Shown here: positions 14,348-41,295 of the stretch, piece by piece
How the letters are laid out: every line of letters begins with the position of its first letter
Numbering within the stretch: position 1 is the first letter of the stretch
NCBI RefSeq assembly: GCF_002176815.1
Contig: NZ_CP021648.1
Location: forward strand, 310,001 to 374,000
Reading direction: 5' to 3'
DNA length: 64,000 nucleotides
Origin: Acidovorax sp. T1
GTDB lineage: Bacteria > Pseudomonadota > Gammaproteobacteria > Burkholderiales > Burkholderiaceae_C
Made by a program: the position numbers and the translations under genes
The notes under the pieces: generated by a model
Told to the model about the DNA's origin: nothing
Database searches by the model: none
What the model saw: the letters and a program-made list of their open reading frames with translations, nothing else

Positions 14348-17300
14348 GGGGTCTCCTCGTTTTCAGTGCAATAAGTGACGGTACGAAAAGCTAGCACTGG
14401 CGCGGAGGTGGTGTTGGTAGATCGTTGATTTCATTGACTTTCCTGTTCACTTTCAAATCTGCGATTCGTGGCGTCAAACCGTGGTCGGTTTCATCCATTG
14501 GTGCCAGTTATCGATGCATTTGGCCGCGAAGGCAGGATTTGGTCAGCATAGCGGTCAACCGGGAAGCGAAACACACCCCGCAAGTTGATGCTCTCCAGCC
14601 TGGTGGGCGCAATCTTCCCGATCAGTTCCGGTGGAATGACCTGGCGGCGGTTCGACCAGCGATCCAGGACCGCCTGCATCTGTGAGGTATTCCACGCCAT
14701 CACGATGTTGGCCATCAGGCTCAACGCATCGGCCACAGCCTGCATTTCATCGACACGTTTGGCCTGCGCCGGGCTGATCCGGCCGGTATAAATGGCGCGC
14801 TTGAGGGCGTTAACAGCCTCGCCCCGATTGAGCACCCGGCGCAACTCGTTCCTGAAAGCGTCCTTGACAAAGTAGTCAGCCAAAAACGCCGTACGCAGCA
14901 ACCGCCCCAATTGCACGCCAGCCTCATAGATTGGATCGCCCTGGGCGGCAGAACCGAACCGCGCAAGAGCTGCCACCGCACTGGCATGTCCGCTCATGAC
15001 CGAGGCTGCCAGGTGCACCAGACTATCCCAATGCTTTTCGATCAAAGCGACGTCGACATTGGCTTCGCACACCGCAGCGATTTCTGCGGGCACTTTGGTG
15101 CCGCGTGGCACAAAGAGGTGGCGCTGTTTGAGTTCCTTCAACCGCGGGCAAAGATCAAAACCAAGCAAACGGGCATGTGACATGGCAAAGTCGGTGTAGC
15201 CATGGGTATCCACAGCAAGCTGGCTGGTCTCCAGCTTTTCTTGGCGGATGACACCTTCAATGGCCACGCTCGCCTGGCGCTCATTGAGCACAAAGGGCTG
15301 CGCATGGAAGATGCCCCACCGGTCTTTTACATGGGAGTAGATTCCAATGGAAGGTGTGTTGCGCCGAGGATCAAGCCGGGCTTGCCACACCCGTTTGGTG
15401 GTCTCCATGCTCATCATGTCAGAAGATGCCAAATCGGACCGCCCCCAGGTGGCGGCAATCGGGTGTCGCTGCATGAATTCCAGCACAGCCTGGCAGGCCT
15501 GGCTCAGACGCCGTTCGTCCCGCGCCCAGCGCATGGCCTGGCGAATGCTGGTGGCAGACAATTGCGGAATCATGCGCGCGCATTCGACCGCAGTCAGACT
15601 GGTGCCGTGGGCCATGATGCCGGCATAGACCATCAGCAGCTCGTCGGTAGAGCGCGGCTCACGTCCGAGCATGATCCAGCTAAAGCGCACCTGGGCGTCA
15701 ACGGCCAGAATCACTTCCGGCAATTGAACCTCACCGATGCGGTGATCCAAAGCCGCGCGCAGCTTGGTCACTTCTGGGTCTTCGTCCTCTGCGGGCAATG
15801 GCGACAAATGGAGTTCATCATCCACGCGCAGTACGCCACTGCGGGCTGCAGCGGCCACCGCATCGACACCGGCAGTTACTCTGGCCAGCAAAGGCTTCAA
15901 GAAAGTGGCAGCCTTGCTGGGTAACGATAGACGGGCATAGTGTTTCTTGGACTCTGCCTGCCAACGCTCGTCCGTGAAGAACAAGCGCGCACGACCCCGA
16001 AAGCTCAGGCTGTGCTCAATCCAGACCGAGCCATTGCGCACCGCGCGGCGCAGGGCAAACAGGGTGGCCACCTCCAACGCCTGAAACGCCCGTTCCCGGT
16101 CTGGGCTGGAGATCGAAACCTGCCAGATCATTCCCAGACTTGGTGCCACCACTTCAACTGGCAGCTTTCTGGATCCTTTGAGATATAAAGCTTGCAGCTT
16201 GGCAAGGTACTCGATGGCAGGATGCTCGCCGGTGGCCTGCCAGGGCAGCTTTGCAATGGCGACGAGCAACGACCGCACGGGGCGAATTCCATCAATCAAT
16301 CCCTCCCGTACCAACGAAGCCCGACTTGGTGGCTTGCGCTTCTGAGTCGCAATGACAAGGGCATCAAGACGTGCACGCAATTCTGAGTCAGGCACAGCTC
16401 CCTTGGCACTCAAGGCTTCCAATTCTCCCAACAACGTTTTGTACATTGCGGCCCAATTGACGGTAGCGGGGACATCGGCGGCAGCCTGACGCCACAGATC
16501 GGCGATCCGGCGCTGCACCATAAGGATCAACTGGTCTGTGGTGGTGAACAGGCAATACCGAAGAAAGCATGCGACCTCCACGGTGCGCGCTGGCTCTTTG
16601 ATCTTGGCTCCGGCTGAGGGCGGCCTGGAGACAAGTCGGCGCGCGTAGCGGCGCAAGATGAGATCGGGGATGTCTGCCAGGTGCTTATGAACGTCCAGCG
16701 TGTAAAGCAGGTCGATGCGCTCCAGTACCTCGCTGATTTGGCGGGTTGAGTGTTTCGCCGGTGCAGCCCATAGCCAACTCTGCTGGGTTTGTCCATCTGG
16801 GCGCAGCTCTGAAACTGAGGCTCGCCAGCGATCAAGTGTTGCTGGATCAACGCTGGCGGCGATGGCGGTGCCTGTTTCAACTTCAAGCTGGGCAAGTGCC
16901 GCCGCAATCAGTGTCCGAATTGCCCGCTCGTGCACGATCACCAGCTTGTTCTTGTACAGCCATTGACGCGCCCGCACGAGTAGCTGATCGCGGTCGGCGC
17001 AGCGCGCCACTTCGTCGCGCAGTTCACGTACCAGTGAGCGGCGCTGGTGCTCGCTCATCCACTGGAATCCAAGGACCGTGCAGGCTACTTGTTGGTGATC
17101 GAATAGCGTGCGCCCGCGTTCATACATGGCTCTCAGCGAGGCGACTTCTGGTGCTGCAATGCCAAGCTCGTTGCCAAGGTGGCGCCACAAGGCTACTGGA
17201 ATTACCCGAAAGGCACCGAGCAAACGCCCACTCATGCGCAGGAAACCAATATGGAGCGCCAGACCAAGCTTGTGGGAATCACCTCGGCGTGCATTGATTG

Positions 17301-17477
17301 CGTCGCGCTCGGCACCATCGAAGGTGAAAAATGCCTTCATCTCGAAGTCGCTGATATCGCGGGGGACCCTGATGGCCACCCAAATTCCCCCGTCTATGGC
17401 CACCTCAAACTCCCCCACCTGAACTGATCGGGGATAGGGGTTTAACGCCGGCGTCGTCGGCACCTGTTGGCAGGACA

Positions 17478-19136
17478 TTGATCCAGTCTTCCCCGAGGGA
17501 AGGCCAAGGAGTGAATGTCTTGAAGTCCAACCAACGCGCCACCATAGAGACACTGCTGGAGCGCAACACATCGCAACGCGAGATCGCCCGCATCACGGGC
17601 ATCGACCGCAAGACGGTCAGGAGCTACCACCAGCGCTGGCTGGAGCAACTGCAGTCAAATTCCCCCGGGGTGGCCACCGGCTCGGCAGGTCAAATTCCCC
17701 CACCCTGGCCACCGGCTCCTGGGCCGGTGGCCACCTCCCTGTGCGAACCCTGGCGCGAGTTCATCGAAGCCCAGCTGCGGCTGAAGCGAAACGCCACGGC
17801 CATCTACCAGGACCTGGTCGACCAGCACGGCTTTGATGGCCAGTACAACTCGGTCAAACGCTTCTGTGCAAAGTTGCGGCACAAGGAGCCCGAGCAGTTC
17901 GATCGCCTGTCCTTCCTGCCCGGCGAGGAGATGCAGGTGGACTACGGCGAGGGCGCGCCCACCCGCGTGCCCGGCAGCGACCGGTACCGCAAGCCCCGCC
18001 TGTTCGTGGCCACCTTGCGGTATTCCCGTGCCAGTTTCCGGTGCGTGGTCTGGAAGTCCAGCCAGCAGATCTGGGCCGAGCTGCACGAGCGGGCCCTGCG
18101 GTACTTCGGGGGCTGCCCCCAGTACGTGGTGCTGGACAATCTGAAGGAAGGCGTCCTCAAGCCCGACCTGTACGAGCCCGATCTCAACCCGGTGTACGCC
18201 GCCGCCCTGGCGCACTACGGCGTGGTGGCCGACCCGGCGCGGGTGCGAGACCCCAACCGCAAGGGCACGGTGGAGCATGCCATCGGCCATACCCAGGCCA
18301 CGGCCTTGAAGGGCCGGCGCTTTGAGTCCATCGAGGCCCAGAACGAGTTCCTGGCGCACTGGGAGAAGAGCTGGGCATCCAAGCGCATCCACGGCACCGA
18401 GCGACGCCAGGTGCAGGCCATGTTCGAGGAAGAGCGCAGCCACCTCAAACCCCTGCCAGTGCTGGGAATGCAGTATTTCGACGAGGCGGTGCGCACCGTC
18501 TGCGACGACAGCTGTGTGCGGGTGGATCACAGCAGCTACGCCGCTCGCCCGGCGAACATCGGCTCCAAGGTGTTGGTGCGCATCTACGCCCAGCGCATCG
18601 AGATTCGTGACATGCACACCCGTGCCTTGCTGCGCACCCACGCCAAGGCCGAGCGTCCCGGCACGGTGATTCTGCCCATGGAGGAGCGGGTGTTCAATCC
18701 GTCTCGCGAGACCCGCCTGATCCTGCGTCAGGCCGGCGAGATTGGTGAGCACGCCAGCCGGCTGTGTGAGCTGCTCTTTGCCATCGAGGGTCGTGTCGGG
18801 CAGCGCAAGCTCTGGGGCATTGTGGGACTCATGCGCCGTTACCCGGCGCACTGCATCAATGCCGCCTGCGCCCAGGCCCTGGAGCAAGGGGTCTACAGCT
18901 ACAAGCGCGTGCTGGCGCTGACCGAAGCCCTCTTTGCCCAGGCGATGGCGGCCATCGAGGCTACCTGCGGCGAAGCACCCGCCGCCGGTGCCCACGCGCT
19001 GACGCAGCAGCATGAGCTCATCCGAGACGCTGAGGAGTACAGCGATCTCTTCGCGCTCGCCGCCGCCACGGCAAACACCACCACCACCACCACCACCACC
19101 AACAACACCACCAACGCACCGGGAGTTCAGCCATGA
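17478..19136 (+). CDS. istA: IS21-family transposase IstA, copy A
   Basis: A 552-residue DDE transposase. The N-terminal HTH is in NTSQREIARITGIDRKTVRS. The catalytic core shows Asp in MQVDYGEG, Asp in YVVLDNLKEG and Glu in KGTVEHAIGH. It carries out strand transfer together with IstB. The C-terminus holds eight consecutive Thr codons (ACC repeats) then Asn-Asn-Thr-Thr. The stop overlaps the istB start, suggesting translational coupling. A GTG near 17511 is an alternative start. The 5' coding region contains internal copies of the element's terminal repeat. Confidence 0.92.
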   Translation: MIQSSPREGQGVNVLKSNQRATIETLLERNTSQREIARITGIDRKTVRSYHQRWLEQLQSNSPGVATGSAGQIPPPWPPAPGPVATSLCEPWREFIEAQLRLKRNATAIYQDLVDQHGFDGQYNSVKRFCAKLRHKEPEQFDRLSFLPGEEMQVDYGEGAPTRVPGSDRYRKPRLFVATLRYSRASFRCVVWKSSQQIWAELHERALRYFGGCPQYVVLDNLKEGVLKPDLYEPDLNPVYAAALAHYGVVADPARVRDPNRKGTVEHAIGHTQATALKGRRFESIEAQNEFLAHWEKSWASKRIHGTERRQVQAMFEEERSHLKPLPVLGMQYFDEAVRTVCDDSCVRVDHSSYAARPANIGSKVLVRIYAQRIEIRDMHTRALLRTHAKAERPGTVILPMEERVFNPSRETRLILRQAGEIGEHASRLCELLFAIEGRVGQRKLWGIVGLMRRYPAHCINAACAQALEQGVYSYKRVLALTEALFAQAMAAIEATCGEAPAAGAHALTQQHELIRDAEEYSDLFALAAATANTTTTTTTTNNTTNAPGVQP

Positions 19137-19897
19137 ACATGATCGAGATCGAACGCGCGCTGCGCGAGCTGCGCCTGTCCGGCATCGCCGAGACCCTGTC
19201 CACCCGCGTGATGCAGGCCCAGGCCGCCCAGCAGCCTTTCCTGGAGACCTTCGCCGCCATGCTGCAAGACGAGCTGGACCGCCGGCGCTCTCGCCTGACC
19301 GAGCGCCGCTTCAAGCGCTCGGGTCTGGATGAGCGCCCCTCGCTGGCTGACTTCGACTGGCGTTTCAACCCGAAGCTGCCGCGCAGCGCCTGCTTCGAGT
19401 TGCACACCCTGAAGTTCATCGGCGAGGGGGCCAACGCGCTGATCATCGGCAAGCCGGGCACCGGCAAGAGCCATGTGGCCAAGGCCGTGGCCTACCAGGC
19501 CACGCTGCAGGGCTATGACGTGCGTTACCTGGAAGCCGACACCGAGTTCGCCCGTTACGCGCTGGCCACTACGGCAGAGCGCACCGAGCTGCTCAAGGAC
19601 TGGGTCGCGCCGGACCTGCTCGTCCTCGATGACCTGTTCCTGGCCAGACGCATCAGCGAGCATGCCGCTGAAGTCCTACAGGCCATCGTGCACCAGCGCT
19701 ACAAGCTGCGCCGCGCTGTTCTCATCACGTCCAACCGCGTGGTGCAGGACTGGGGCAAATACCTCGGCGACGCCACCATGGCCAGCACCATCCTGGATCG
19801 CCTCATGCACCGCTGCGCGATGCTGGAGTTCGAGGGCAAGAGCTACCGCCTCAAGGAGGCCGCTGCACGCATCGCCATCACACCCGAGTCGTCATAA
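19133..19897 (+). CDS. istB: IS21-family helper ATPase IstB, copy A
   Basis: A 254-residue AAA+ ATPase related to DnaC. Walker A is GKPGTGKSH and Walker B is LLVLDDLF, with sensor-like VLITSNR. It assembles on target DNA and directs IstA. The start overlaps the end of istA by 4 bp. It is essentially identical to the copy at 29718-30482. Confidence 0.94.
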   Translation: MNMIEIERALRELRLSGIAETLSTRVMQAQAAQQPFLETFAAMLQDELDRRRSRLTERRFKRSGLDERPSLADFDWRFNPKLPRSACFELHTLKFIGEGANALIIGKPGTGKSHVAKAVAYQATLQGYDVRYLEADTEFARYALATTAERTELLKDWVAPDLLVLDDLFLARRISEHAAEVLQAIVHQRYKLRRAVLITSNRVVQDWGKYLGDATMASTILDRLMHRCAMLEFEGKSYRLKEAAARIAITPESS

Positions 19898-20157
19898 TCC
19901 GACCGTCCTGCCTGGGGGAATTTGGGGTGGCCAAGGGTGGGGGAATTTGACCTGGCCATCGGGGGCGGGGGAGCCCACGCATCCCCAAAAACGTTGTGTG
20001 CCAACCCTGCATCGTGAACCTCAAAAGTGGGAGGCCACCATACCCGTTTACAAAGCGAACAGGAAAGTCAATGAAATCAACGATCTACCCAGACCACCCC
20101 CGCGCCAGTGCTAGCTTTGCGTACCGTCACTTATTGCACTGAAAACGAGGGGACCCC

Positions 20158-26227: not shown

Positions 26228-26239
26228 GGAGAACAATAA

Positions 26240-27559: not shown

Positions 27560-27561
27560 GC

Positions 27562-27990
27562 ATGTCGAGGCAAGTTACGTTCGAGCAGCGAGTTGAGTTT
27601 GGCGACTGCGATCCTGTGGGTATCGTGTGGTTCCCGAACTACTTCAGGTGGCTGGACGCCGCTTCGCGGCACTTCTTCATCTCCTGCGGCGTCCCGCCTT
27701 GGCGCACTACGCTCGCTGAGCGAGGCATCGTCGGAACGCCGCTCGTCAGCAGCAATGCAAATTTCTCATCGCCCGTAAGCTATGACGATGTGCTGTTGAT
27801 CGAGACCGAGGTCCGGGAGTGGGGTAAGAAAAGTTTCGTCCAGCACCATCGCGTGCTTCGCCTGTCCAACTCCGGTGAGGCGCCTCAGTTAGTGATGCAG
27901 GCGGACGAGACTCGGGTATTTGCTGGCTATCAGGAAGGTCGGCTTCGCGCCATTCCCATACCTGAGGACTACTTGGCCCTATGTAGCTAA
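27562..27990 (+). CDS. fcbC: 4-hydroxybenzoyl-CoA thioesterase
   Basis: A 142-residue single hot-dog-fold thioesterase. VEFGDCDPVGIVWFPNYFRW contains the catalytic Asp17 at the same number as the Pseudomonas CBS3 enzyme, and the C-terminus LRAIPIPEDYLALCS matches that family. It hydrolyses 4-hydroxybenzoyl-CoA to 4-hydroxybenzoate, the substrate of PobA. It is the last gene of the operon, and its stop overlaps the convergent TetR gene's stop by a few bases. Confidence 0.95.
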   Translation: MSRQVTFEQRVEFGDCDPVGIVWFPNYFRWLDAASRHFFISCGVPPWRTTLAERGIVGTPLVSSNANFSSPVSYDDVLLIETEVREWGKKSFVQHHRVLRLSNSGEAPQLVMQADETRVFAGYQEGRLRAIPIPEDYLALCS

Positions 27991-28601
27991 CGCTCTTCCC
28001 CGGCGGCGACTATGCCGCCTAAGACCAGATCTGCAAAATGATCCGCAATATCCGCAATAGTCGCATCGGAGCGCTTGCCCCACCAAGAGGCAACCGTGTT
28101 GCACATGCCGAGGATTCCGAGTGTCACCAGGCGGCAATCGAGGTCTTTCCGGAAGTCTCCGCGTCTAGTCCCTGAACGCAGGATAGTCTCCAAGTTACTC
28201 TCGTACTCACGGATCTGCCGACCGATCTCGTGGCGTGCTTCGTCCCCTAGGTCGTTGCGGTGCGCTAGGAATACCTTGTAGAACTCGGGTCTTACTTCAA
28301 GCGACTCAAGGTGTCGCTTGATCATTTCGCGGATTTTCTCGGCGGGCGCCTGTCGCGATTGTCGAATTTCAGTCGAGAAACTCACGTAACCCTCGATCGC
28401 GTAGACACAAATTTCCGCGAGTGCAGCCTCCTTAGACCGGATGTAGTAATAGAGGCTACCTTGTTGCACCCCGAGAGCATCGGCTATGTCCTTAGTCGTG
28501 GCGACGTGATAGCCGCGTTGGGAGAACTGGCGTGCAGCCTCCTGCAGCACTCGAAGGTACTTCGCGGTGTACTTGTCAGTCGAGCGTTGAGGGTTGCTCA
28601 A
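27987..28601 (-). CDS. TetR-family regulator, probable repressor of the fcb operon
   Basis: A 204-residue TetR protein. The N-terminal HTH is in HVATTKDIADALGVQQGSLY and the following YYIRSKEAAL is family-typical; the ligand domain is unassigned. The start appears to be TTG at 28601. It is convergent with fcbC, and its upstream region carries the same TCTATTGA-N4-TCGAATT box as the fcb promoter, implying autoregulation and operon control. A CoA ester such as 4-chlorobenzoyl-CoA is a plausible inducer for this group; that is inference. Confidence 0.85.
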   Translation of the reverse strand: MSNPQRSTDKYTAKYLRVLQEAARQFSQRGYHVATTKDIADALGVQQGSLYYYIRSKEAALAEICVYAIEGYVSFSTEIRQSRQAPAEKIREMIKRHLESLEVRPEFYKVFLAHRNDLGDEARHEIGRQIREYESNLETILRSGTRRGDFRKDLDCRLVTLGILGMCNTVASWWGKRSDATIADIADHFADLVLGGIVAAGEER

Positions 28602-28640: not shown

Positions 28641-29717
28641 CTAGCTTGAGCGGAGGGCTTGGCGCTGACCCCGTACCCGATTCAGTACCGCTCGGAAGTA
28701 GAGATTCCCGGCTTTGTTGATTTCCACGCAAAGCTGACCCGGGGGGGGTGCGGATAAAAACTTGGACTGGTTTTATGCCGCAAGTCCAAGGCTCACCCGG
28801 TATTCGATCGGGCTGAGGGCCCCCAGGGAGATCTTGATCCGCTTCTCGTTGTACCAACGGATGTAGTCGTCGAGCACCTCAATGAACTGCTCAACTGTGA
28901 CGCTCTTCCAGTCCCGAGGATAGAACAGTTCATTCTTCAACCGACCGAAGAAGCCCTCGCACGCTGCGTTGTCAGGCGAGCAGGCCTTGCGGGACATCGA
29001 GCGTGTGAGCTTGGCCTCGCTCATTCTGGATAGCCAGCCAGGCCAGCGGTAGTGACCTCCGCGGTCTGAGTGGACCACTGGTCGATCGCTTGTCTCTGTG
29101 ACGGTCTCGATGGCTGCATCCAGCATGGTGTTGACCAGCTCTGCATCCGGACTCGTGCCGATGGTCCAGCTCACCACCATCCCGTCGAAGCAATCGATGA
29201 TCGGCGACAGGTAGACCTTGCCTGCAGGGATCTGGAACTCCGTGATGTCGGTCAGCCATTTCTTGTTGGGGGCTGCTGCCTGGAAGTCACGGTTGATGAT
29301 GTTCTCTGGTGCCGGGCTGATCTCGCCCAGGTAAGACGCATACCGACGCCTCTTGGGTTTTGCAACGACCAGGCTCTCTTGCTTCATCAGCCGCTGTATC
29401 ACCTTCTCGGAGATCGGGCCTTGCTCTCTGGCCAGTGAGGCTTGCAGCCTGCGGTAGCCATAGCAGCGGTGATTGGACTCGAAGATCTCGGTGATGGACT
29501 GGCGCACCCTCACGTACTTGTCTCCGATTGCCGCGCGGGCCCGATGGTAGAAGTACGAGCTACGCGCAAGACTCAACTGTGCAAGGAGCTCTGGCAGGCC
29601 ATAGTGCTCCCTGAGGGCGTCAATCAGCAGTGTCTTCTCCCGGTTAGACACCCCGATGGCCAGGTCAAATTCCCCCACCCTTGGCCACCCCAAATTCCCC
29701 CAGGCAGGACGGTCGGA

Positions 29718-30482
29718 TTATGACGACTCGGGTGTGATGGCGATGCGTGCAGCGGCCTCCTTGAGGCGGTAGCTCTTGCCCTCGAACTCCAGCATCGCGC
29801 AGCGGTGCATGAGGCGATCCAGGATGGTGCTGGCCATGGTGGCGTCGCCGAGGTATTTGCCCCAGTCCTGCACCACGCGGTTGGACGTGATGAGAACAGC
29901 GCGGCGCAGCTTGTAGCGCTGGTGCACGATGGCCTGTAGGACTTCAGCGGCATGCTCGCTGATGCGTCTGGCCAGGAACAGGTCATCGAGGACGAGCAGG
30001 TCCGGCGCGACCCAGTCCTTGAGCAGCTCGGTGCGCTCTGCCGTAGTGGCCAGCGCGTAACGGGCGAACTCGGTGTCGGCTTCCAGGTAACGCACGTCAT
30101 AGCCCTGCAGCGTGGCCTGGTAGGCCACGGCCTTGGCCACATGGCTCTTGCCGGTGCCCGGCTTGCCGATGATCAGCGCGTTGGCCCCCTCGCCGATGAA
30201 CTTCAGGGTGTGCAACTCGAAGCAGGCGCTGCGCGGCAGCTTCGGGTTGAAACGCCAGTCGAAGTCAGCCAGCGAGGGGCGCTCATCCAGACCCGAGCGC
30301 TTGAAGCGGCGCTCGGTCAGGCGAGAGCGCCGGCGGTCCAGCTCGTCTTGCAGCATGGCGGCGAAGGTCTCCAGGAAAGGCTGCTGGGCGGCCTGGGCCT
30401 GCATCACGCGGGTGGACAGGGTCTCGGCGATGCCGGACAGGCGCAGCTCGCGCAGCGCGCGTTCGATCTCGATCATGTTCAT
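29718..30482 (-). CDS. istB: IS21-family helper ATPase IstB, copy B
   Basis: A 254-residue AAA+ ATPase, the same protein as copy A (Walker A GKPGTGKSH, Walker B LLVLDDLF). The frame is open back to 30605 because of the shift in the istA tail, but the ATG at 30482 (MNMIEIERALRELR) is the natural start. Confidence 0.93.
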   Translation of the reverse strand: MNMIEIERALRELRLSGIAETLSTRVMQAQAAQQPFLETFAAMLQDELDRRRSRLTERRFKRSGLDERPSLADFDWRFNPKLPRSACFELHTLKFIGEGANALIIGKPGTGKSHVAKAVAYQATLQGYDVRYLEADTEFARYALATTAERTELLKDWVAPDLLVLDDLFLARRISEHAAEVLQAIVHQRYKLRRAVLITSNRVVQDWGKYLGDATMASTILDRLMHRCAMLEFEGKSYRLKEAAARIAITPESS

Positions 30483-32139
30483 GGCTGAACTCCCGGTGCG
30501 TTGGTGGTGTTGTTGGTGGTGGTGGTGGTGGTGTGGTGGTGTTTGCCGTGGCGGCGGCGAGCGCGAAGAGATCGCTGTACTCCTCAGCGTCTCGGATGAG
30601 CTCATGCTGCTGCGTCAGCGCGTGGGCACCGGCGGCGGGTGCTTCGCCGCAGGTAGCCTCGATGGCCGCCATCGCCTGGGCAAAGAGGGCTTCGGTCAGC
30701 GCCAGCACGCGCTTGTAGCTGTAGACCCCTTGCTCCAGGGCCTGGGCGCAGGCGGCATTGATGCAGTGCGCCGGGTAACGGCGCATGAGTCCCACAATGC
30801 CCCAGAGCTTGCGCTGCCCGACACGACCCTCGATGGCAAAGAGCAGCTCACACAGCCGGCTGGCGTGCTCACCAATCTCGCCGGCCTGACGCAGGATCAG
30901 GCGGGTCTCGCGAGACGGATTGAACACCCGCTCCTCCATGGGCAGAATCACCGTGCCGGGACGCTCGGCCTTGGCGTGGGTGCGCAGCAAGGCACGGGTG
31001 TGCATGTCACGAATCTCGATGCGCTGGGCGTAGATGCGCACCAACACCTTGGAGCCGATGTTCGCCGGGCGAGCGGCGTAGCTGCTGTGATCCACCCGCA
31101 CACAGCTGTCGTCGCAGACGGTGCGCACCGCCTCGTCGAAATACTGCATTCCCAGCACTGGCAGGGGTTTGAGGTGGCTGCGCTCTTCCTCGAACATGGC
31201 CTGCACCTGGCGTCGCTCGGTGCCGTGGATGCGCTTGGATGCCCAGCTCTTCTCCCAGTGCGCCAGGAACTCGTTCTGGGCCTCGATGGACTCAAAGCGC
31301 CGGCCCTTCAAGGCCGTGGCCTGGGTATGGCCGATGGCATGCTCCACCGTGCCCTTGCGGTTGGGGTCTCGCACCCGCGCCGGGTCGGCCACCACGCCGT
31401 AGTGCGCCAGGGCGGCGGCGTACACCGGGTTGAGATCGGGCTCGTACAGGTCGGGCTTGAGGACGCCTTCCTTCAGATTGTCCAGCACCACGTACTGGGG
31501 GCAGCCCCCGAAGTACCGCAGGGCCCGCTCGTGCAGCTCGGCCCAGATCTGCTGGCTGGACTTCCAGACCACGCACCGGAAACTGGCACGGGAATACCGC
31601 AAGGTGGCCACGAACAGGCGGGGCTTGCGGTACCGGTCGCTGCCGGGCACGCGGGTGGGCGCGCCCTCGCCGTAGTCCACCTGCATCTCCTCGCCGGGCA
31701 GGAAGGACAGGCGATCGAACTGCTCGGGCTCCTTGTGCCGCAACTTTGCACAGAAGCGTTTGACCGAGTTGTACTGGCCATCAAAGCCGTGCTGGTCGAC
31801 CAGGTCCTGGTAGATGGCCGTGGCGTTTCGCTTCAGCCGCAGCTGGGCTTCGATGAACTCGCGCCAGGGTTCGCACAGGGAGGTGGCCACCGGCCCAGGA
31901 GCCGGTGGCCAGGGTGGGGGAATTTGACCTGCCGAGCCGGTGGCCACCCCGGGGGAATTTGACTGCAGTTGCTCCAGCCAGCGCTGGTGGTAGCTCCTGA
32001 CCGTCTTGCGGTCGATGCCCGTGATGCGGGCGATCTCGCGTTGCGATGTGTTGCGCTCCAGCAGTGTCTCTATGGTGGCGCGTTGGTTGGACTTCAAGAC
32101 ATTCACTCCTTGGCCTTCCCTCGGGGAAGACTGGATCAA
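30283..32139 (-). CDS. istA: IS21-family transposase IstA, copy B, C-terminus extended by frameshift
   Basis: Identical in its catalytic part to copy A. In the ACC-repeat tract (about 30515-30543) copy B has two extra bases, so the frame leaves the Thr run, reads Pro codons, passes the normal stop and continues inside istB out of frame to 30283. The predicted product is 618 residues instead of 552. The DDE core is unaffected, but the extension and loss of the istA-stop/istB-start overlap may alter coupling or activity. Confidence 0.85.
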   Translation of the reverse strand: MIQSSPREGQGVNVLKSNQRATIETLLERNTSQREIARITGIDRKTVRSYHQRWLEQLQSNSPGVATGSAGQIPPPWPPAPGPVATSLCEPWREFIEAQLRLKRNATAIYQDLVDQHGFDGQYNSVKRFCAKLRHKEPEQFDRLSFLPGEEMQVDYGEGAPTRVPGSDRYRKPRLFVATLRYSRASFRCVVWKSSQQIWAELHERALRYFGGCPQYVVLDNLKEGVLKPDLYEPDLNPVYAAALAHYGVVADPARVRDPNRKGTVEHAIGHTQATALKGRRFESIEAQNEFLAHWEKSWASKRIHGTERRQVQAMFEEERSHLKPLPVLGMQYFDEAVRTVCDDSCVRVDHSSYAARPANIGSKVLVRIYAQRIEIRDMHTRALLRTHAKAERPGTVILPMEERVFNPSRETRLILRQAGEIGEHASRLCELLFAIEGRVGQRKLWGIVGLMRRYPAHCINAACAQALEQGVYSYKRVLALTEALFAQAMAAIEATCGEAPAAGAHALTQQHELIRDAEEYSDLFALAAATANTTTPPPPPPTTPPTHREFSHEHDRDRTRAARAAPVRHRRDPVHPRDAGPGRPAAFPGDLRRHAARRAGPPALSPDRAPLQALGSG

Positions 32140-32984
32140 TGTCCTGCCAACAGGTGCCGACGACGCCGGCGTTAAACCCCTATCCCCGATCAGTTCAGGT
32201 GGGGGAGTTTGAGGTGGCCATAGACGGGGGAATTTGGGTGGCCATCAGGGGACAGGAGCTGCAGATCGACGCCCAGGCCTTTTTTTAACAGTTCATTGGC
32301 CTTGTTCAAGAGGTCCTGCTCAAGGCGCAGTTGCCTGACTTCGTGGCGCAGTATCTCAACTTGGCGCTCGAGCTCTTCACGCTCTTGCGCCTGCGGTGAT
32401 CGATCGGTGTGTTTCATTGATGCGGGTGCCTCACGCCCCAGAAGCTGGTTCTTCCAGTTGTACAACGTTGGCCGGCACACGCCGAGCCTGTCGGCAACAG
32501 CCTGTGCACTTTCCTGCCGGGTGCAAAGCTCCATCACTCCCGCGTGCTTCAAGCTCTCGGGATATCTTCGCTGGCCCACACTGCCGACAAGGGCCATCCT
32601 GGCTTCAGGGAATGCCTCGCGGACCCACTTGGTTAGCGTTCCACGCCCTGGATAGCCCAGCGCCCTCATGGTGGCAGCGATGCATCGATCATGTGTGAGG
32701 TAGTGCTCGATGGCCGCTGCCTTCTGGCCCTGCGAGAACTTCGGCTCCCGACGGGCATATCCCAGCGGCAGGTCGAGCCGCTGCTGATACTCGCGGTACC
32801 ACCCCTTCAATGCATTCTTGGTTGGGTAACCCAGCTGACGGATGGTCGGGCTGGTGCGTTTGCCGAGCTTGATGTAGAGCTCAACGGCTCGGATTCGGTC
32901 TTCGTAGGAATACATGAACTACCTTCTAGTAGTCCAAGTTTTCGTCCGCACCCCCACCTTCAAGTCCCATACCCAGGAGCCATC

Positions 32985-35528
32985 ATGACAATCGGACGTC
33001 GACAATTCATCAAGGGCAGTCTTGCAGTCGCTGCCATAGGCGGGCTACCATTTTCACTCAGCCAGCCTGCGTTGGCGGCGTTAACGCCTCGAAAAGATCG
33101 ATCTTGGGAGGATGGATACCGCAACATCTTTAAAGGCGAGACGATCGTCCGAACGATCAATATGCCCAACTGTACGGGTTCCTGCGCATGGAACGTGATT
33201 GTCAAAGATGGCATCGTGCAGCGTGTTGAGCAGCCTCTAGACTACCCGGACGACGAGTACAACCCGCGCGGTTGCATGAAGGGTGCCACCTATCACCGCC
33301 GGGTGTACTCGCCCAATCGGGTCAAGTTTCCGATGAAGCGGGTTGGGCCGCGCGGTGCGGGGCAATGGAAGCGGATTAGTTGGGATGAAGCGTTTGACTA
33401 TCTTGCTACAGAAATCAAGCGAATTTCTGCGAAGTATGGTGCCAATACGGTGTGGATCTACCCGCCGGTACCTGCCACGGGTATCGTCAAACAGGGTGCG
33501 GGCTTCCGTTTTGCATCGGTCAATGGTTTCGGCCTTGGGACCTTTTACAACTGGTACGGCGACCTGCCATTGGCACATCCCATTACCTGGAACGTGCAGA
33601 CCGAAGAGCATGAATTCAAAGACATGCTCCACACCAAGTACGCCATCATCTGGGGGTCTGACATCTTGCAGACCCGCATGCCTGACGCACACTTCTTCAC
33701 CGATGCGCGCGCAAAAGGTGTCAAGCTAGTTTACATCGCACCCTATTACGACCCCACGGCCACGGCGGTAGACGAGTGGATTCGCGTACGTCCTGGTACA
33801 GATGGCGCCTTGGCTCTGGGTATGTGCCATGTGGTGGTCAAACGCGGTCTGACTGACGATAACCACCTGCGCCGGACCACAAGCGGTCCGCTATTGGTGC
33901 GCAAAGACAATGGCAAGTATCTGAAGTCCATCGACGTCATGGCAGGCGGCGATGCCAAGACTTTTATGGTTTTTGATCCGCAATCGGCAAAGGCAGTGCC
34001 GGATACCTATTTCAGTGCGACAAATGCACTGACTGGCACGTGGGACATTCCGTTGAAGGACGGCAAGACTGTGAGTTGCACAACGGCCCACACGTTGATG
34101 CTGAAAAAGCTGGAAGATTACGATCCGGCCACCGTGGCGGAAATCACCGGTGTGCCCGCCGCTGTCATCGAACGCATTGCGGTCGAATATGCGACGACCA
34201 AACCTTCCAGCATCTGGTCCGGGACCGGCATCAATCACTGGTATCACGGCGACCTGATCGGTCGGGCAGTGATTGAGCTGGCCTGCCTGACCGGTAACGT
34301 GGGCGTGCACGGTGGTGGCGTGAGCCCCTGGGCTGGTCAGTACCTGATGCGGCTGAATCCGACGGAGTATTTCTTCCCCAAGAAGAATAATGGCAATCCC
34401 AATGATCGTTACCGTGCCGTGCCTTTGGATACCGCCTATGTGGTCAATGGGCCGACGGACACCATGGCCGACAAGGCCAAATTATGGCGACAGATCCGTT
34501 GTATTTGGGCCGCCGGTGGCAATCTGCTTGGCGAGGCATCCGATCAAAGCAATCTGACCCGCAAGGTGTTGCCCGAAATTGAATTGATTGTCTCACCCGA
34601 GATCGAGATGAGCACCACCGCTCAATTGGCCGATATCGTGCTGCCGGTTGTCAGCTGGTTCGAACTGCCCTATGACATCGCCACCACGCCAGCGCATCCC
34701 TATATTCAGTTGGCTGAGGGCTCCATTCAACCGATGTTCGAGGCCAAGACTGACATCGAGATTTACTACGAAATGTGCAAACGCCTGGGTACCGGTGACA
34801 TATTCAAGTTCAACCGCCCTGAGCCCGCCATTGAATTGCTGCTGGAAACCGGTGGGCCGCAAGTCAAGGGCATCACATTCGAGCGCTTGAAGAAAGAGCG
34901 CTGCATCCGGGTTAACCTTCCAAGCTCACCTTACGCATCGTTTACCGAAGAAATTGAGGGCAAGCAAAAATTCAAGACGGCATCCGGAAGGCAGGAGTTG
35001 TACAAAGACGAAGACCGATTTATCGAGATGGGAGAGCAGTTGCCAGTGCACAAGGAGCCACACATGGCCACGCCGTATGGCCCCTCGAAGGTCTGGAGCG
35101 AAGCGAAAAAGGAGAGTAACCCCTATTACAAGACCTATCCCATGGTTTACCACGCCCGGCACACCCGCTGGAGTGTCCACTCATCGTGGCGTACCACGGA
35201 AGAGATTCTTAAGCTTGACGACATCGGCCAACCGCTGTTGGAATTGAACCCGATTGATGCAATCAAACGCGGATTGGTTGCCGGGGACTGGGCTACGGCC
35301 TACAACCAGAACGGCTATGTCAAGGCCAAGGTCAAGGTGCGCGAATCGGTCCCGCCTGGTGCTGTCTTGATCTATTTTGGCTGGCAGCGCGACCAAATTC
35401 GTGAGGGCCATTGGAACGCCCTAACACACAACGACATCAATCCGATTCACGAAATCTACTTCATTCCCAATGTTTGGGGCCCAGTTTCTGGCCACTTTGA
35501 CCAGTTGTGTGAAGTCAAGAAGGCTTAA
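32985..35528 (+). CDS. Tat-exported type II DMSO-reductase-family molybdoenzyme, catalytic subunit
   Basis: An 847-residue Mo-bisMGD enzyme. A twin-arginine signal (GRRQFIKG) is followed by PNCTGSCAWNV (Cys63, Cys67) and NPRGCMKG (Cys97). The NarG-like core YGDLPLAHPITW and WGSDILQTRMPDAHFF places it in the NarG/EbdA/SerA/ClrA branch. It is shorter than those relatives (about 900-1250 residues). At the position of the NarG FS0 His it has Asn59, and at the position of the Mo-ligand Asp it has Glu207 in a by-eye alignment. The ATG at 32985 has AGGAG upstream; an IS3 element ends 30 bp upstream and has replaced the native promoter region. The substrate is unknown; hydroxylation, dehydrogenation or oxyanion reduction are all possible. 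Confidence 0.85.
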   Translation: MTIGRRQFIKGSLAVAAIGGLPFSLSQPALAALTPRKDRSWEDGYRNIFKGETIVRTINMPNCTGSCAWNVIVKDGIVQRVEQPLDYPDDEYNPRGCMKGATYHRRVYSPNRVKFPMKRVGPRGAGQWKRISWDEAFDYLATEIKRISAKYGANTVWIYPPVPATGIVKQGAGFRFASVNGFGLGTFYNWYGDLPLAHPITWNVQTEEHEFKDMLHTKYAIIWGSDILQTRMPDAHFFTDARAKGVKLVYIAPYYDPTATAVDEWIRVRPGTDGALALGMCHVVVKRGLTDDNHLRRTTSGPLLVRKDNGKYLKSIDVMAGGDAKTFMVFDPQSAKAVPDTYFSATNALTGTWDIPLKDGKTVSCTTAHTLMLKKLEDYDPATVAEITGVPAAVIERIAVEYATTKPSSIWSGTGINHWYHGDLIGRAVIELACLTGNVGVHGGGVSPWAGQYLMRLNPTEYFFPKKNNGNPNDRYRAVPLDTAYVVNGPTDTMADKAKLWRQIRCIWAAGGNLLGEASDQSNLTRKVLPEIELIVSPEIEMSTTAQLADIVLPVVSWFELPYDIATTPAHPYIQLAEGSIQPMFEAKTDIEIYYEMCKRLGTGDIFKFNRPEPAIELLLETGGPQVKGITFERLKKERCIRVNLPSSPYASFTEEIEGKQKFKTASGRQELYKDEDRFIEMGEQLPVHKEPHMATPYGPSKVWSEAKKESNPYYKTYPMVYHARHTRWSVHSSWRTTEEILKLDDIGQPLLELNPIDAIKRGLVAGDWATAYNQNGYVKAKVKVRESVPPGAVLIYFGWQRDQIREGHWNALTHNDINPIHEIYFIPNVWGPVSGHFDQLCEVKKA

Positions 35529-35542
35529 CAAGGAGCAACAAC

Positions 35543-36409
35543 ATGTCTGAAGAACTCTGGCAAAAATTCTATGGCAAGCCTAATCCGAAGTACGGGAACA
35601 AGGTCCAGTATGGAATGCTTCTTGACATCAATAAGTGCATCGGTTGCCATACATGCACCATGTCATGCAAACAAACCTGGACCAGCGGTCCGGGTCAGGA
35701 AAACATGTATTGGAATAGCGTATCGACGCAGCCATTTGGCAAGTACCCTCGGAAAAATGGTAGCAAGAATCCCACAGACTGGGACTACCGTTTTTCCAAT
35801 CTGTACCAAGACACGCCCAAAGGCAAATTTCCAAAGCTTTGGCAGTTCTATCTGGCAAGGCCATGCAACCACTGCGCCAATCCCGCTTGTCTCCCGGCCT
35901 GCCCGACACGCTCAATCTACAAGACGGAGGATGGGGTTGTTCTCATTGACCAAAACACGTGTGAAGGCTTTCAGAACTGCGTAAAAGCTTGCCCCTACGA
36001 CAAAATCTATTACAACGCAGTCACAAAAAAATCTCAAAAGTGCATGTTCTGCTTCCCACTGCTTGAAAAGGGACAAGAGCCACAATGTGTCAAGACCTGC
36101 GTTGGCAAGATCCGAATCTTTGGAAACCTTATGGATCCGGAAAGCACGATCTCAAAAATGATCCGGGACCCGTCGCTGGGCGTTAAGGCCTATGACCCGG
36201 AGACCAGCCTCAAGGCCACCCACCGTGTGATGACTCCACAGGAGCCACGGCAGTACCGCCCAGACTTCGGAACAATTCCTTCTGTTTGGTACATACCTCC
36301 CAGGAACATCCCTAAGGAAGAAGTTGAAAAGTACTTCGGATACGGCATGGGTGGATTGCTCGACGAGCCACACCACGTTGAAGCCCCGACCAAGATGAAA
36401 GACATCTAG
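35543..36409 (+). CDS. Iron-sulfur electron-transfer subunit of the molybdoenzyme
   Basis: A 288-residue protein of the NarH/EbdB/ClrB type. Cysteine groups are CIGCHTCTMSC (residues 32-42), CNHCANPACLPACP, CEGFQNCVKACPYDK with CMFC, and CVKTC. In the third motif the usual second Cys is Phe, as in NarH-type subunits where a Trp marks a [3Fe-4S] cluster. It would carry electrons between the catalytic subunit and a haem partner. It has no own signal peptide, so hitchhiking export with the Tat-tagged subunit is expected. AAGGAG precedes the ATG, 14 bp after the catalytic gene. Confidence 0.88.
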   Translation: MSEELWQKFYGKPNPKYGNKVQYGMLLDINKCIGCHTCTMSCKQTWTSGPGQENMYWNSVSTQPFGKYPRKNGSKNPTDWDYRFSNLYQDTPKGKFPKLWQFYLARPCNHCANPACLPACPTRSIYKTEDGVVLIDQNTCEGFQNCVKACPYDKIYYNAVTKKSQKCMFCFPLLEKGQEPQCVKTCVGKIRIFGNLMDPESTISKMIRDPSLGVKAYDPETSLKATHRVMTPQEPRQYRPDFGTIPSVWYIPPRNIPKEEVEKYFGYGMGGLLDEPHHVEAPTKMKDI

Positions 36410-36429
36410 CGCCAAAAGGAACAACCAAA

Positions 36430-37155
36430 ATGAATACAACACTATCCTGCGACGCGCCGTCGAGCCAGCCATTGTCCCCGCGGGACCGCGCGCAGTTGTA
36501 CCACTTCCTTGAGCTGGCCTTCGCACATCCCGGTGAAGATGGGCACGCTTATTTTTCTGAGGAAAGCACTGAGCGCGACTTCCAGGGCCGCTACAAAGGG
36601 GTCGGTCAAGCCGGTGGAATTCTCGATCAGAAGGGTGAGACAGCAGCAAGCCAATTCTTTGCTGGGATTCGCCGGATGAGTTTCGAAGATGCCGAGGCTG
36701 CCCACATATCCCTTTTCACAAACAACTATCCACACCTTCCATGTCCACCGTATGGATCGTTGTTCACGACAGTCGACAGTGACAAGCGCCTGGCAGAAAT
36801 GCTCGCGATCAAGGAGTTTTACCAAAGCCATGGTGTCGACATGTCTGAAACTTTCGACGACTTACCAGACCACTTGTGCGTGGAGCTGGAGTTTTTGCAA
36901 CTGCTGTGTTTTCGGGAGGGCGAGGCCGTAGATCGTTCTGATGCTGAATTGCTTGCGGGCGTGCGAGATGCACAGGCGGAATTTTTGGATCGCTTCTTGC
37001 TAAAATTTACCGACTGCCTTGCAGACATTGCAATCAAACTGGTCCCTGAAAATCCCTACAGCCATCTCCTTGACTCCATGCGCTATCTAGTGCATGTGCA
37101 TCGCTCGCAACTTGATGCTGCCAATCAATCTGCCATTCCCGGGAGCCCATCATGA
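36430..37155 (+). CDS. TorD/NarJ-type molybdoenzyme chaperone
   Basis: A 241-residue all-helical protein with the TorD/DmsD-like CPPYGSLFTTVD segment and LPDHLCVELEFLQLLC (the ..DHl..EL.Fl motif). Such proteins guard the apo-catalytic subunit until cofactor insertion and Tat export. The position after the Fe-S subunit gene matches the A-B-D order of ClrABD/SerABD/EbdABD operons. An AAGGAAC ribosome site is present. Its stop overlaps the next ATG by 4 bp. Confidence 0.85.
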   Translation: MNTTLSCDAPSSQPLSPRDRAQLYHFLELAFAHPGEDGHAYFSEESTERDFQGRYKGVGQAGGILDQKGETAASQFFAGIRRMSFEDAEAAHISLFTNNYPHLPCPPYGSLFTTVDSDKRLAEMLAIKEFYQSHGVDMSETFDDLPDHLCVELEFLQLLCFREGEAVDRSDAELLAGVRDAQAEFLDRFLLKFTDCLADIAIKLVPENPYSHLLDSMRYLVHVHRSQLDAANQSAIPGSPS

Positions 37156-37609
37156 AAAACCCGCTTTTACTGCTTTGTTTGACTGTCGGGCTCGCCATCG
37201 GATTGTGCGGTGCAAGTGTGGCCGCCGACAAGACCTGGATACCTCAAAGGGCTCCTCAAAGAAGGCGTCGGCGAAGATGGACGTGACCCCGCATTTCAAG
37301 CCGACTGGCAAGACTGTTTCTGCAGCCAGGGGCGAGCCCATATTTGTTGATCACTGCGCGTTGTGTCATGGACTTCATGGACGCGGCGATGGACCACGTT
37401 CAGCATTTTTTCAACCCGGCGTGCAGTTCATTCCCGACTTTGCAACGCCGGGGTACCTAAATGGTCGCGACGAGCAATTGCTGCAAAGCGTACGCGAGGG
37501 ACTTTCGCGATTGCCTGAACCCGCGATATTGATGCCCCAATTCAAATACATACTGGCAGACGATGAAATTCGCAGTGTGCTGGCCTATCTAAAGACCCTC
37601 GCAGTAATG
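37152..37609 (+). pseudogene. Periplasmic c-type cytochrome, frameshifted and cut at its end by IS1071
   Basis: The ATG at 37152 begins a clear signal peptide (MKNPLLLLCLTVGLAIGLCG ending near ASVAAD). After DKTW the frame runs into Pro/Arg-rich sequence and a stop, while the cytochrome continues in another frame as SKKASAKMDVTPHFKP and EPIFVDHCALCHGLHG, the CxxCH haem site. A single-base change near 37228-37240 explains this. The C-terminus IRSVLAYLKTLAVMG runs straight into the IS1071 tip, whose sequence supplies the last residues. As written it cannot make an exported cytochrome. It was probably the electron partner of the molybdoenzyme. Confidence 0.8.
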
Positions 37610-40600
37610 GGGGTCTCCTCGTTTTCAGTGCAATAAGTGACGGTACGAAAAGCTAGCACTGGCGCGGAGGTGGTGTTGGTAGATCGTTGATTTCATTGAC
37701 TTTCCTGTTCACTTTCAAATCTGCGATTCGTGGCGTCAAACCGTGGTCGGTTTCATCCATTGGTGCCAGTTATCGATGCATTTGGCCGCGAAGGCAGGAT
37801 TTGGTCAGCATAGCGGTCAACCGGGAAGCGAAACACACCCCGCAAGTTGATGCTCTCCAGCCTGGTGGGCGCAATCTTCCCGATCAGTTCCGGTGGAATG
37901 ACCTGGCGGCGGTTCGACCAGCGATCCAGGACCGCCTGCATCTGTGAGGTATTCCACGCCATCACGATGTTGGCCATCAGGCTCAACGCATCGGCCACAG
38001 CCTGCATTTCATCGACACGTTTGGCCTGCGCCGGGCTGATCCGGCCGGTATAAATGGCGCGCTTGAGGGCGTTAACAGCCTCGCCCCGATTGAGCACCCG
38101 GCGCAACTCGTTCCTGAAAGCGTCCTTGACAAAGTAGTCAGCCAAAAACGCCGTACGCAGCAACCGCCCCAATTGCACGCCAGCCTCATAGATTGGATCG
38201 CCCTGGGCGGCAGAACCGAACCGCGCAAGAGCTGCCACCGCACTGGCATGTCCGCTCATGACCGAGGCTGCCAGGTGCACCAGACTATCCCAATGCTTTT
38301 CGATCAAAGCGACGTCGACATTGGCTTCGCACACCGCAGCGATTTCTGCGGGCACTTTGGTGCCGCGTGGCACAAAGAGGTGGCGCTGTTTGAGTTCCTT
38401 CAACCGCGGGCAAAGATCAAAACCAAGCAAACGGGCATGTGACATGGCAAAGTCGGTGTAGCCATGGGTATCCACAGCAAGCTGGCTGGTCTCCAGCTTT
38501 TCTTGGCGGATGACACCTTCAATGGCCACGCTCGCCTGGCGCTCATTGAGCACAAAGGGCTGCGCATGGAAGATGCCCCACCGGTCTTTTACATGGGAGT
38601 AGATTCCAATGGAAGGTGTGTTGCGCCGAGGATCAAGCCGGGCTTGCCACACCCGTTTGGTGGTCTCCATGCTCATCATGTCAGAAGATGCCAAATCGGA
38701 CCGCCCCCAGGTGGCGGCAATCGGGTGTCGCTGCATGAATTCCAGCACAGCCTGGCAGGCCTGGCTCAGACGCCGTTCGTCCCGCGCCCAGCGCATGGCC
38801 TGGCGAATGCTGGTGGCAGACAATTGCGGAATCATGCGCGCGCATTCGACCGCAGTCAGACTGGTGCCGTGGGCCATGATGCCGGCATAGACCATCAGCA
38901 GCTCGTCGGTAGAGCGCGGCTCACGTCCGAGCATGATCCAGCTAAAGCGCACCTGGGCGTCAACGGCCAGAATCACTTCCGGCAATTGAACCTCACCGAT
39001 GCGGTGATCCAAAGCCGCGCGCAGCTTGGTCACTTCTGGGTCTTCGTCCTCTGCGGGCAATGGCGACAAATGGAGTTCATCATCCACGCGCAGTACGCCA
39101 CTGCGGGCTGCAGCGGCCACCGCATCGACACCGGCAGTTACTCTGGCCAGCAAAGGCTTCAAGAAAGTGGCAGCCTTGCTGGGTAACGATAGACGGGCAT
39201 AGTGTTTCTTGGACTCTGCCTGCCAACGCTCGTCCGTGAAGAACAAGCGCGCACGACCCCGAAAGCTCAGGCTGTGCTCAATCCAGACCGAGCCATTGCG
39301 CACCGCGCGGCGCAGGGCAAACAGGGTGGCCACCTCCAACGCCTGAAACGCCCGTTCCCGGTCTGGGCTGGAGATCGAAACCTGCCAGATCATTCCCAGA
39401 CTTGGTGCCACCACTTCAACTGGCAGCTTTCTGGATCCTTTGAGATATAAAGCTTGCAGCTTGGCAAGGTACTCGATGGCAGGATGCTCGCCGGTGGCCT
39501 GCCAGGGCAGCTTTGCAATGGCGACGAGCAACGACCGCACGGGGCGAATTCCATCAATCAATCCCTCGCGGACCAGGGAGGCCCTGCTCGGTGGTTTGCG
39601 TTTCTGGGTTTCGGTGATCAAGGCTTCAAGACGGGCACGCAACTCAGCATCTGGCACCGCACCTTGCGCGCTCAAGGCAACAAGTTCGCCGAGCAGCGTT
39701 TTGTACATTGCGGCCCAATTGACGGTAGCGGGGACATCGGCGGCAGCCTGACGCCACAGATCGGCGATCCGGCGCTGCACCATAAGGATCAACTGGTCTG
39801 TGGTGGTGAACAGGCAATACCGAAGAAAGCATGCGACCTCCACGGTGCGCGCTGGCTCTTTGATCTTGGCTCCGGCTGAGGGCGGCCTGGAGACAAGTCG
39901 GCGCGCGTAGCGGCGCAAGATGAGATCGGGGATGTCTGCCAGGTGCTTATGAACGTCCAGCGTGTAAAGCAGGTCGATGCGCTCCAGTACCTCGCTGATT
40001 TGGCGGGTTGAGTGTTTCGCCGGTGCAGCCCATAGCCAACTCTGCTGGGTTTGTCCATCTGGGCGCAGCTCTGAAACTGAGGCTCGCCAGCGATCAAGTG
40101 TTGCTGGATCAACGCTGGCGGCGATGGCGGTGCCTGTTTCAACTTCAAGCTGGGCAAGTGCCGCCGCAATCAGTGTCCGAATTGCCCGCTCGTGCACGAT
40201 CACCAGCTTGTTCTTGTACAGCCATTGACGCGCCCGCACGAGTAGCTGATCGCGGTCGGCGCAGCGCGCCACTTCGTCGCGCAGTTCACGTACCAGTGAG
40301 CGGCGCTGGTGCTCGCTCATCCACTGGAATCCAAGGACCGTGCAGGCTACTTGTTGGTGATCGAATAGCGTGCGCCCGCGTTCATACATGGCTCTCAGCG
40401 AGGCGACTTCTGGTGCTGCAATGCCAAGCTCGTTGCCAAGGTGGCGCCACAAGGCTACTGGAATTACCCGAAAGGCACCGAGCAAACGCCCACTCATGCG
40501 CAGGAAACCAATATGGAGCGCCAGACCAAGCTTGTGGGAATCACCTCGGCGTGCATTGATTGCGTCGCGCTCGGCACCATCGAAGGTGAAAAATGCCTTC

Positions 40601-40813
40601 ATCTCGAAGTCGCTGATATCGCGGGGGAGCCCACGCATCCCCAAAAACGTTGTGTGCCAACCCTGCATCGTGAACCTCAAAAGTGGGAGGCCACCATACC
40701 CGTTTACAAAGCGAACAGGAAAGTCAATGAAATCAACGGTCTACCCAGACCACCCCCGCGCCAGTGCTAGCTTTGCGTACCGTCACTTATTGCACTGAAA
40801 ACGAGGAGACCCC
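37610..40813 (-). mobile_element. IS1071 copy 2, complete (3204 bp)
   Basis: Tips GGGGTCTCCTCG at 37610 and its complement ending at 40813 give exactly 3204 bp, the known length. Terminal repeats of about 110 bp lie at 37610-37719 and 40704-40813. The flanks TAATG and GGGTC do not match, so there is no target duplication. Same orientation as copy 1. It is the right boundary of the composite element. Confidence 0.96.
37753..40680 (-). CDS. tnpA: IS1071 transposase (Tn3 family)
   Basis: A 975-residue Tn3-family DDE transposase, the only gene of IS1071; the usual length of about 970 fits an ATG at 40668 equally well. No resolvase is present, as is normal for IS1071. Residues around the segment 39568-39696 differ from copy 1 (for example VALSAQGAVPDAEL against EALSAKGAVPDSEL). 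Confidence 0.95.
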   Translation of the reverse strand: MRFTMQGWHTTFLGMRGLPRDISDFEMKAFFTFDGAERDAINARRGDSHKLGLALHIGFLRMSGRLLGAFRVIPVALWRHLGNELGIAAPEVASLRAMYERGRTLFDHQQVACTVLGFQWMSEHQRRSLVRELRDEVARCADRDQLLVRARQWLYKNKLVIVHERAIRTLIAAALAQLEVETGTAIAASVDPATLDRWRASVSELRPDGQTQQSWLWAAPAKHSTRQISEVLERIDLLYTLDVHKHLADIPDLILRRYARRLVSRPPSAGAKIKEPARTVEVACFLRYCLFTTTDQLILMVQRRIADLWRQAAADVPATVNWAAMYKTLLGELVALSAQGAVPDAELRARLEALITETQKRKPPSRASLVREGLIDGIRPVRSLLVAIAKLPWQATGEHPAIEYLAKLQALYLKGSRKLPVEVVAPSLGMIWQVSISSPDRERAFQALEVATLFALRRAVRNGSVWIEHSLSFRGRARLFFTDERWQAESKKHYARLSLPSKAATFLKPLLARVTAGVDAVAAAARSGVLRVDDELHLSPLPAEDEDPEVTKLRAALDHRIGEVQLPEVILAVDAQVRFSWIMLGREPRSTDELLMVYAGIMAHGTSLTAVECARMIPQLSATSIRQAMRWARDERRLSQACQAVLEFMQRHPIAATWGRSDLASSDMMSMETTKRVWQARLDPRRNTPSIGIYSHVKDRWGIFHAQPFVLNERQASVAIEGVIRQEKLETSQLAVDTHGYTDFAMSHARLLGFDLCPRLKELKQRHLFVPRGTKVPAEIAAVCEANVDVALIEKHWDSLVHLAASVMSGHASAVAALARFGSAAQGDPIYEAGVQLGRLLRTAFLADYFVKDAFRNELRRVLNRGEAVNALKRAIYTGRISPAQAKRVDEMQAVADALSLMANIVMAWNTSQMQAVLDRWSNRRQVIPPELIGKIAPTRLESINLRGVFRFPVDRYADQILPSRPNASITGTNG

Positions 40814-41295
40814 GGGTCCTGCCTGAGCTGGGTGACCAGGTCCTGGGTGCTGCGCAGCGGCGAGTCGGCGCGCACCACCACCGTGACGAACTCGCGGAAC
40901 AGCGTGGCCAGCGGCGTGCCTTTTTGCAGGTGGTCGGGCAGCGCGTTCTGTGCCAGGCTGTTGCCGTAGCTGGTGCTGAGCGTCATCAGCGCATGCGCGT
41001 CGCCCGGGTGGCGGTGCAGGCCTTCGAGCGCGACGATGCCATGCGCACTCGATTTGTTGCTGACGATGAAGCCGGGCGCGAGCTTTTCGCGCGTCAGCAG
41101 CTCGGTGAGCTTGCGTGCCGCGACATCGAGCGCCGCGCCCGCGCCGCTGGGCACGATGAATTCGGTCGACTTGCGCGGTTTCCAGTCGGCGTCGCCTTGC
41201 GCCTGCGCCTGCGCCGGCAGCCAGGCGCTGCAAGCCAGCGCCATGAGCGCGGCAAGGGCGGGGCGCAGTGACAGGGGACGGGGCGTGGTCGGCAT
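40814..41295 (-). pseudogene. Bug/TctC-family binding protein, C-terminal half removed at IS1071 junction
   Basis: About 160 native residues remain of a family that is usually about 320. A signal peptide (ALAALMALACSAWLPAQAQA) is followed by KSTEFIVPSGAGAALDVAA and FIVSNKSSAHG. After LRQDPG the frame enters the IS1071 tip and stops within it. The ligand-binding C-lobe is missing, so it should not bind solute. Confidence 0.88.

Follow-up and report, generated by a model that had tools for sequence, protein, structure and literature searches.

The stretch analysed here, which we call the window, comprises 64,000 nucleotides of Acidovorax sp. T1 (contig NZ_CP021648.1, positions 310,001 to 374,000), and contains a short run of molybdoenzyme genes set among insertion sequences (Table 1; positions are those of the window). 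An earlier note on this DNA had described genes for a Tat-exported catalytic molybdenum (Mo) subunit of 847 residues (A), an iron-sulfur (Fe-S) subunit (B) and a TorD-type chaperone (D), and all three were recovered where it had placed them, the first with an RR-type leader and the second with 15 cysteines. Its wider picture, in which an IS1071/fcb element carries Mo genes of type II-like character together with a gene for a small c-type cytochrome, was also borne out by a haem domain, two IS1071 copies and matches to FcbB and FcbA. The operon is not complete as had been claimed, because the reading frame of the cytochrome gene is broken, its 3' end is cut and the chlorite dismutase gene (cld) is missing. 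Judged from its sequence, the locus is very probably a group 3 chlorate reductase (Clr) operon (clrA3-B-D with a c-type cytochrome) that has been caught up among the mobile elements of a 4-chlorobenzoate catabolic element and has lost its partner cld.

Table 1. Coordinates of the operon and of the surrounding features in the window
Feature	Position	Strand	Remarks
Probable group 3 chlorate reductase catalytic subunit (ClrA3-type)	32985..35528	+	847 aa, Tat-type leader, FS0 cysteines
AGGAG, ribosome-binding-like	32975..32979	+	Retained between IS3-family end and ATG
Fe-S subunit	35543..36409	+	288 aa, 15 Cys grouped 4+4+3+4
TorD/NarJ-type chaperone	36430..37155	+	Profile matches, order in relatives
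Disrupted c-type cytochrome	37152..37609	+	Signal-peptide frame from 37152; haem domain in other frame; 3' end replaced by IS1071
IS1071	37610..40813	-	Full length; Tn3-family transposase 37753-40680, both terminal repeats
Second IS1071, same orientation	14348..20157	-	Interrupted by IS21-family element 17367-19964
fcbB	22247-23119	+	FcbB, 543 bits to 1NZY
fcbA	23116-24648	+	FcbA, 1046 bits to 1T5D
Three TRAP transporter genes	24693-27559	+	
4HBT-type thioesterase (fcbC-like)	within 27334-27990	+	
TetR-family regulator	27987..28601	-	Adjoins fcb genes
IS3-family element	28741..32958	-	Terminal repeats 28741-28768 / 32931-32958, 28 nt, 89% complementary; at cld site of relatives

Family models say little about the catalytic subunit. 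NCBIfam and Pfam on their own assign it to no family, public records name it just 'molybdopterin-dependent oxidoreductase', and the best model, NCBIfam TIGR03479 (dimethyl sulfoxide reductase family type II), gives 584 bits and does not reach its cut-off of 984.75; the RR-type leader falls slightly below the cut-off of Pfam TAT_signal (20.2 vs 22.7 bits). Comparison with relatives was more telling. Among the best 120 of 5370 homologues, drawn from a candidate set capped at 8000, one set shares 59-89% identity with the window protein, after which identity falls to about 40%; the Rhodoplanes roseus enzyme (P0017) is 81% identical. A careful tree of 42 rows places the window protein as sister to the Piscinibacter defluvii enzyme (100/99) within a 20-row clade, also at 100/99, that includes the R. 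roseus enzyme and the first Mo enzyme of the metagenome-assembled genome (MAG) GWC2_42_11. These 42 rows were taken from a quick tree of 58, which included 43 of the best 120 homologues and excluded the fragments P0028 and P0034-P0036; a further 16 near-duplicate, long or odd rows were dropped and L041 was unused. The quick tree agrees, its 29 corresponding rows being joined at SH-aLRT 100. In the same list of best homologues, identity drops to about 60% for P0029-P0032, which form an outer group, and to 33-40% for the wider set P0037-P0124; the active-site motifs of these proteins are related.

The phylogeny proposed in the earlier note was run against Ideonella ClrA (ClrA1), PcrA, NarG and EbdA-like rows, all of which fall outside the 20-row clade; SerA, DdhA, steroid C25 dehydrogenase, ClrA2 and authenticated EbdA had no rows in the careful tree. 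High-support placement inside a characterised clade had been named as the sign of a known system, and such placement is what we obtained, but within group 3 Clr and not within classical ClrA or EbdA. A 2022 study (PMC9751292) states that MAG GWC2_42_11 encodes both a group 3 Clr and a perchlorate reductase (Pcr). In this genome (our locus L017) the second Mo enzyme is Pcr-like, its partial gene scoring 823 bits to PcrA, so we assigned the group 3 Clr to the first.

The gene order of the relatives bears directly on the substrate. In all 19 clade loci compared (L001-L017, L019 and L026), the Mo gene is preceded on its own strand by cld, at a distance of 23-112 bp. The L026 record annotates this upstream gene as a chlorite dismutase family protein, the upstream product of L015 scores 410 bits against a solved chlorite dismutase, and all three upstream cld products tested match PF06778. 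The Fe-S subunit and chaperone genes come next in each of the 17 loci reaching that far, and the cytochrome gene in 16 of 16; the window Fe-S subunit is 67-93% identical to the B product in 17 relatives. Eighteen of the 19 loci were matched with best-segment identities of 69-91%, and L026, from plasmids, stands at 74%. Because of the clade placement, and because every one of the 19 relatives compared has cld next to its Mo gene, the substrate, which the earlier note held could not be named, can be given as chlorate, presumably reduced to chlorite in the periplasm. L001, L002 and L003 carry further cld-like stretches. The genes around the operon share 90-100% protein identity between L011 (a Paracoccus binzhouensis contig) and L026 (an Alisedimentitalea scapharcae conjugative plasmid), which points to recent transfer.

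Of the two reactions suggested earlier, chlorate reduction stands, and anaerobic side-chain hydroxylation finds no support. An EbdA-like hydroxylase of alkylaromatics or sterols, tied to the chlorobenzoate genes, would suit the type II-like sequence and the fcb genes on the same element, but the window protein gives 272 of 2000 bits with the EbdA model NF042978, missing the cut-off, and the relatives have cld next door. Three EbdA-like rows, which score 1327-1388 of 2000 bits with this model and hence are not authenticated EbdA, cluster elsewhere at 100/100 with the window outside. The profile score and the tree both disfavour a hydroxylase of this kind, which we find hardly credible.

A function mainly as perchlorate reductase would suit the closest solved structures, which are those of PcrA (PDB 4YDD, 5CH7, 5E7O). 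In a structure alignment of 46 proteins, Asp193 occupies the position of the PcrA Mo ligand, Asp170, and PcrA F164 and Y165, the latter a gate residue, are retained. However, PcrA Trp461 is replaced by Tyr453 (the PcrA numbering of F164 and W461 agrees with the PDB titles), and across 24 clade rows this residue is Tyr in 22 and His in 2. The window protein lies outside the PcrA rows and scores 438 bits to PcrA, a comparison in which the second Mo enzyme of L012 reaches 1476. Moreover, five of the 19 loci (L002, L003, L012, L014 and L017) encode an additional type II-like Mo enzyme, and in the two tested by sequence against structures (L012 and L017) it is Pcr-like. R. roseus, a member of the clade, reportedly grew with chlorate and not with perchlorate. 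Bit scores and tree disfavour an identity with PcrA, and we regard perchlorate as a very unlikely main substrate.

The window copy departs from the order of its relatives at both ends. Upstream, the IS3-family element ends at 32958, 26 bp ahead of the Mo start codon, and is itself split by an IS21-family element (about 29651-32250). We detected no cld remnant in the window with 19 Cld queries (best E 0.38; a positive control on L015 worked), no PF06778 match in the host genome (7 of 14 control genomes were positive) and, in a search without a control of its own, no match there to the L015 Cld protein at E 1. Relative to a full group 3 module (cld-A-B-D-cytochrome), cld is therefore wanting in both window and host genome. 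The host does have a NarG-like reading frame of 1273 aa (C1:3562952-3566446), which could reduce chlorate co-metabolically.

Downstream, a cytochrome gene follows the chaperone gene as in the relatives, but it is not intact. The frame encoding the signal peptide stops at 37286, the CxxCH (CALCH) domain lies in a different frame from about 37238, homology to the relatives' cytochromes starts at 37232-37283, and IS1071 cuts the 3' end. Two haem motifs are present in the cytochrome of the tree sister P. defluvii (L001) and one in those of L015 and L004; one remains in the window. Were the frameshift a sequencing error, for which the existence of a single assembly leaves room, just cld and the last cytochrome residues would be missing; yet the 3' end is cut independently by IS1071 and the host assembly, in 4 contigs, was scored 100% complete, so such an error seems unlikely. 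Most likely, the operon is a fragment that was captured not long ago and lacks some of its parts. On the simplest reading, mobile elements picked it up, and cld was lost and the cytochrome gene damaged either at that time or afterwards, an order of events that we infer. The host most likely has an incomplete pathway and does not grow by it.

By analogy, the A-B dimer would be exported by the twin-arginine translocation (Tat) system after chaperone loading, and a c-type cytochrome in the periplasm would supply electrons, which would reach Mo-bisMGD by way of the clusters of B and then FS0 of A. There, chlorate would lose one oxygen to become chlorite, which in intact operons Cld would then convert to chloride and O2. 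The window copy could still perform the first of these reactions as a working orphan, with another cytochrome feeding electrons and chlorite removed chemically or by neighbouring cells. In a constraint test with 24 full-length clade proteins, its Mo subunit shows no changes at the 351 columns invariant in the 23 others, which by the same measure carry 0-10 (five also 0). Of the four relatives compared (L001, L002, L004 and L015), dS was computable for L001 and L002, against which the gene has a dN/dS of 0.03-0.04, although synonymous sites are almost saturated. The AGGAG ahead of the ATG is retained as well. PMC9751292 describes Cld as dispensable in settings where chlorite is removed by reduced iron or sulfur or by other microbes, and PMC4623255 describes one perchlorate reducer from which pcrC is absent; both would accommodate an orphan. 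Against it are the missing cld, the broken cytochrome frame and a simple scan that detected nothing resembling a sigma-70 site ahead of the Mo gene (across 32700-37800 one promoter-like site was found, within the Mo gene, vs 2.9 in shuffles). Recent loss would explain the absence of decay, and so would a working orphan, which on balance we consider improbable but not far-fetched. More doubtful still is the bolder proposal that a chlorate reductase freed from Cld on a chloroaromatic element is still working in an aerobic degrader, its chlorite released or removed by neighbours, as a split pathway spread by IS1071.

Several points weigh against our preferred interpretation of a captured and damaged group 3 operon. 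The Mo subunit scores under the NCBIfam type II cut-off (584 vs 985 bits). Relations among the outer groups of the careful tree are weak, with the PcrA rows joined at just 84/47 and ClrA1 and NarG on long branches flagged by the program. The chlorate activity of group 3 enzymes and the growth of R. roseus mentioned above are reported for relatives, in the study that defined the group (Barnum & Coates 2020), and their extension to the window copy would be by analogy. In addition, the undecayed Mo subunit, as read from the alignment, is as compatible with a working enzyme as with recent loss, and the cytochrome frameshift could be a sequencing error.

The surroundings of the operon are consistent with capture. 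The fcbB, fcbA, TRAP transporter and 4HBT thioesterase genes sit between two copies of IS1071, which is recognisable by its terminal repeat, its 3.2-kb length and its Tn3-family transposase. The two IS21-family copies, one in IS1071 (17367-19964) and one in the IS3-family element (29651-32250), point in opposite directions and are near-identical, aligning in two pieces at 100% with a length difference of about 2 nt. The composite IS1071 element described earlier holds in that two copies flank the fcb genes, but a clean composite-transposon insertion finds no support, as no matching target duplication was seen and the flank genes differ. On the right (40783-41295), a TctC-type receptor gene is truncated at the right end of IS1071, and the left flank is presumably TauD/TfdA-type, as judged by eye; because the two differ, one side of the element appears to have been rearranged. 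The nearest named relatives of a flanking monooxygenase are in Ramlibacter and Ottowia. The A-B-D stretch has 53.5% GC in a window of 63% (46-62% in seven operons of relatives), a composition that fits arrival from elsewhere.

The same element was not found elsewhere in the genomes and plasmid records searched. The Mo gene was present in none of the 46 other genomes of the genus (E 1e-100; 47 including the host), nor, at E 1e-150 with the host as sole match, in any of 398 other genomes of the order or 273 of the class, and none of the 46 had an fcbB match at E 1e-80. The exact IS1071 end pattern was absent from 42 loci examined. Although 187 plasmid records match the operon DNA, none covers 80% of it, and the 20 listed align over roughly 1%, at the IS1071 end; two plasmid records match the fcb region, each at 1% coverage. 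A literature search that omits most subscription journals found no paper pairing IS1071 with chlorate reductase and none joining IS1071, 4-chlorobenzoate and fcb, although papers on IS1071 and chlorobenzoate exist; nor did it find any on Rhodoplanes and chlorate or under the name of group 3 chlorate reductase. An enzyme with only a generic public name thus gains a named substrate, and a group 3 chlorate reductase appears to have been picked up beside IS1071, a usual carrier of genes for pollutant catabolism. The locus is also a warning that clrA3 by itself is no proof of chlorate respiration.

Compared with known systems, the window operon is closest to group 3 Clr as found in R. roseus and MAG GWC2_42_11, with which it shares the catalytic clade (100/99) and the A-B-chaperone-cytochrome order; L026 of this group likewise has no annotated gamma subunit. 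Unlike these relatives, it has an IS3-family element instead of cld, its cytochrome gene is frameshifted and cut, and it resides on an IS1071/fcb element. With the group 1 Clr of Ideonella dechloratans (L035) it has in common type II-like A and B subunits, a chaperone and flanking insertion sequences to the left and right, IS21 among them, but the two are 27% identical, L035 falls outside the clade, and it has a cld of its own and a gamma subunit in its annotation. PcrAB (in the PDB structures cited above) is 35% identical in the structural alignment and lies outside the group 3 clade, and the window protein bears Tyr in place of its Trp461.
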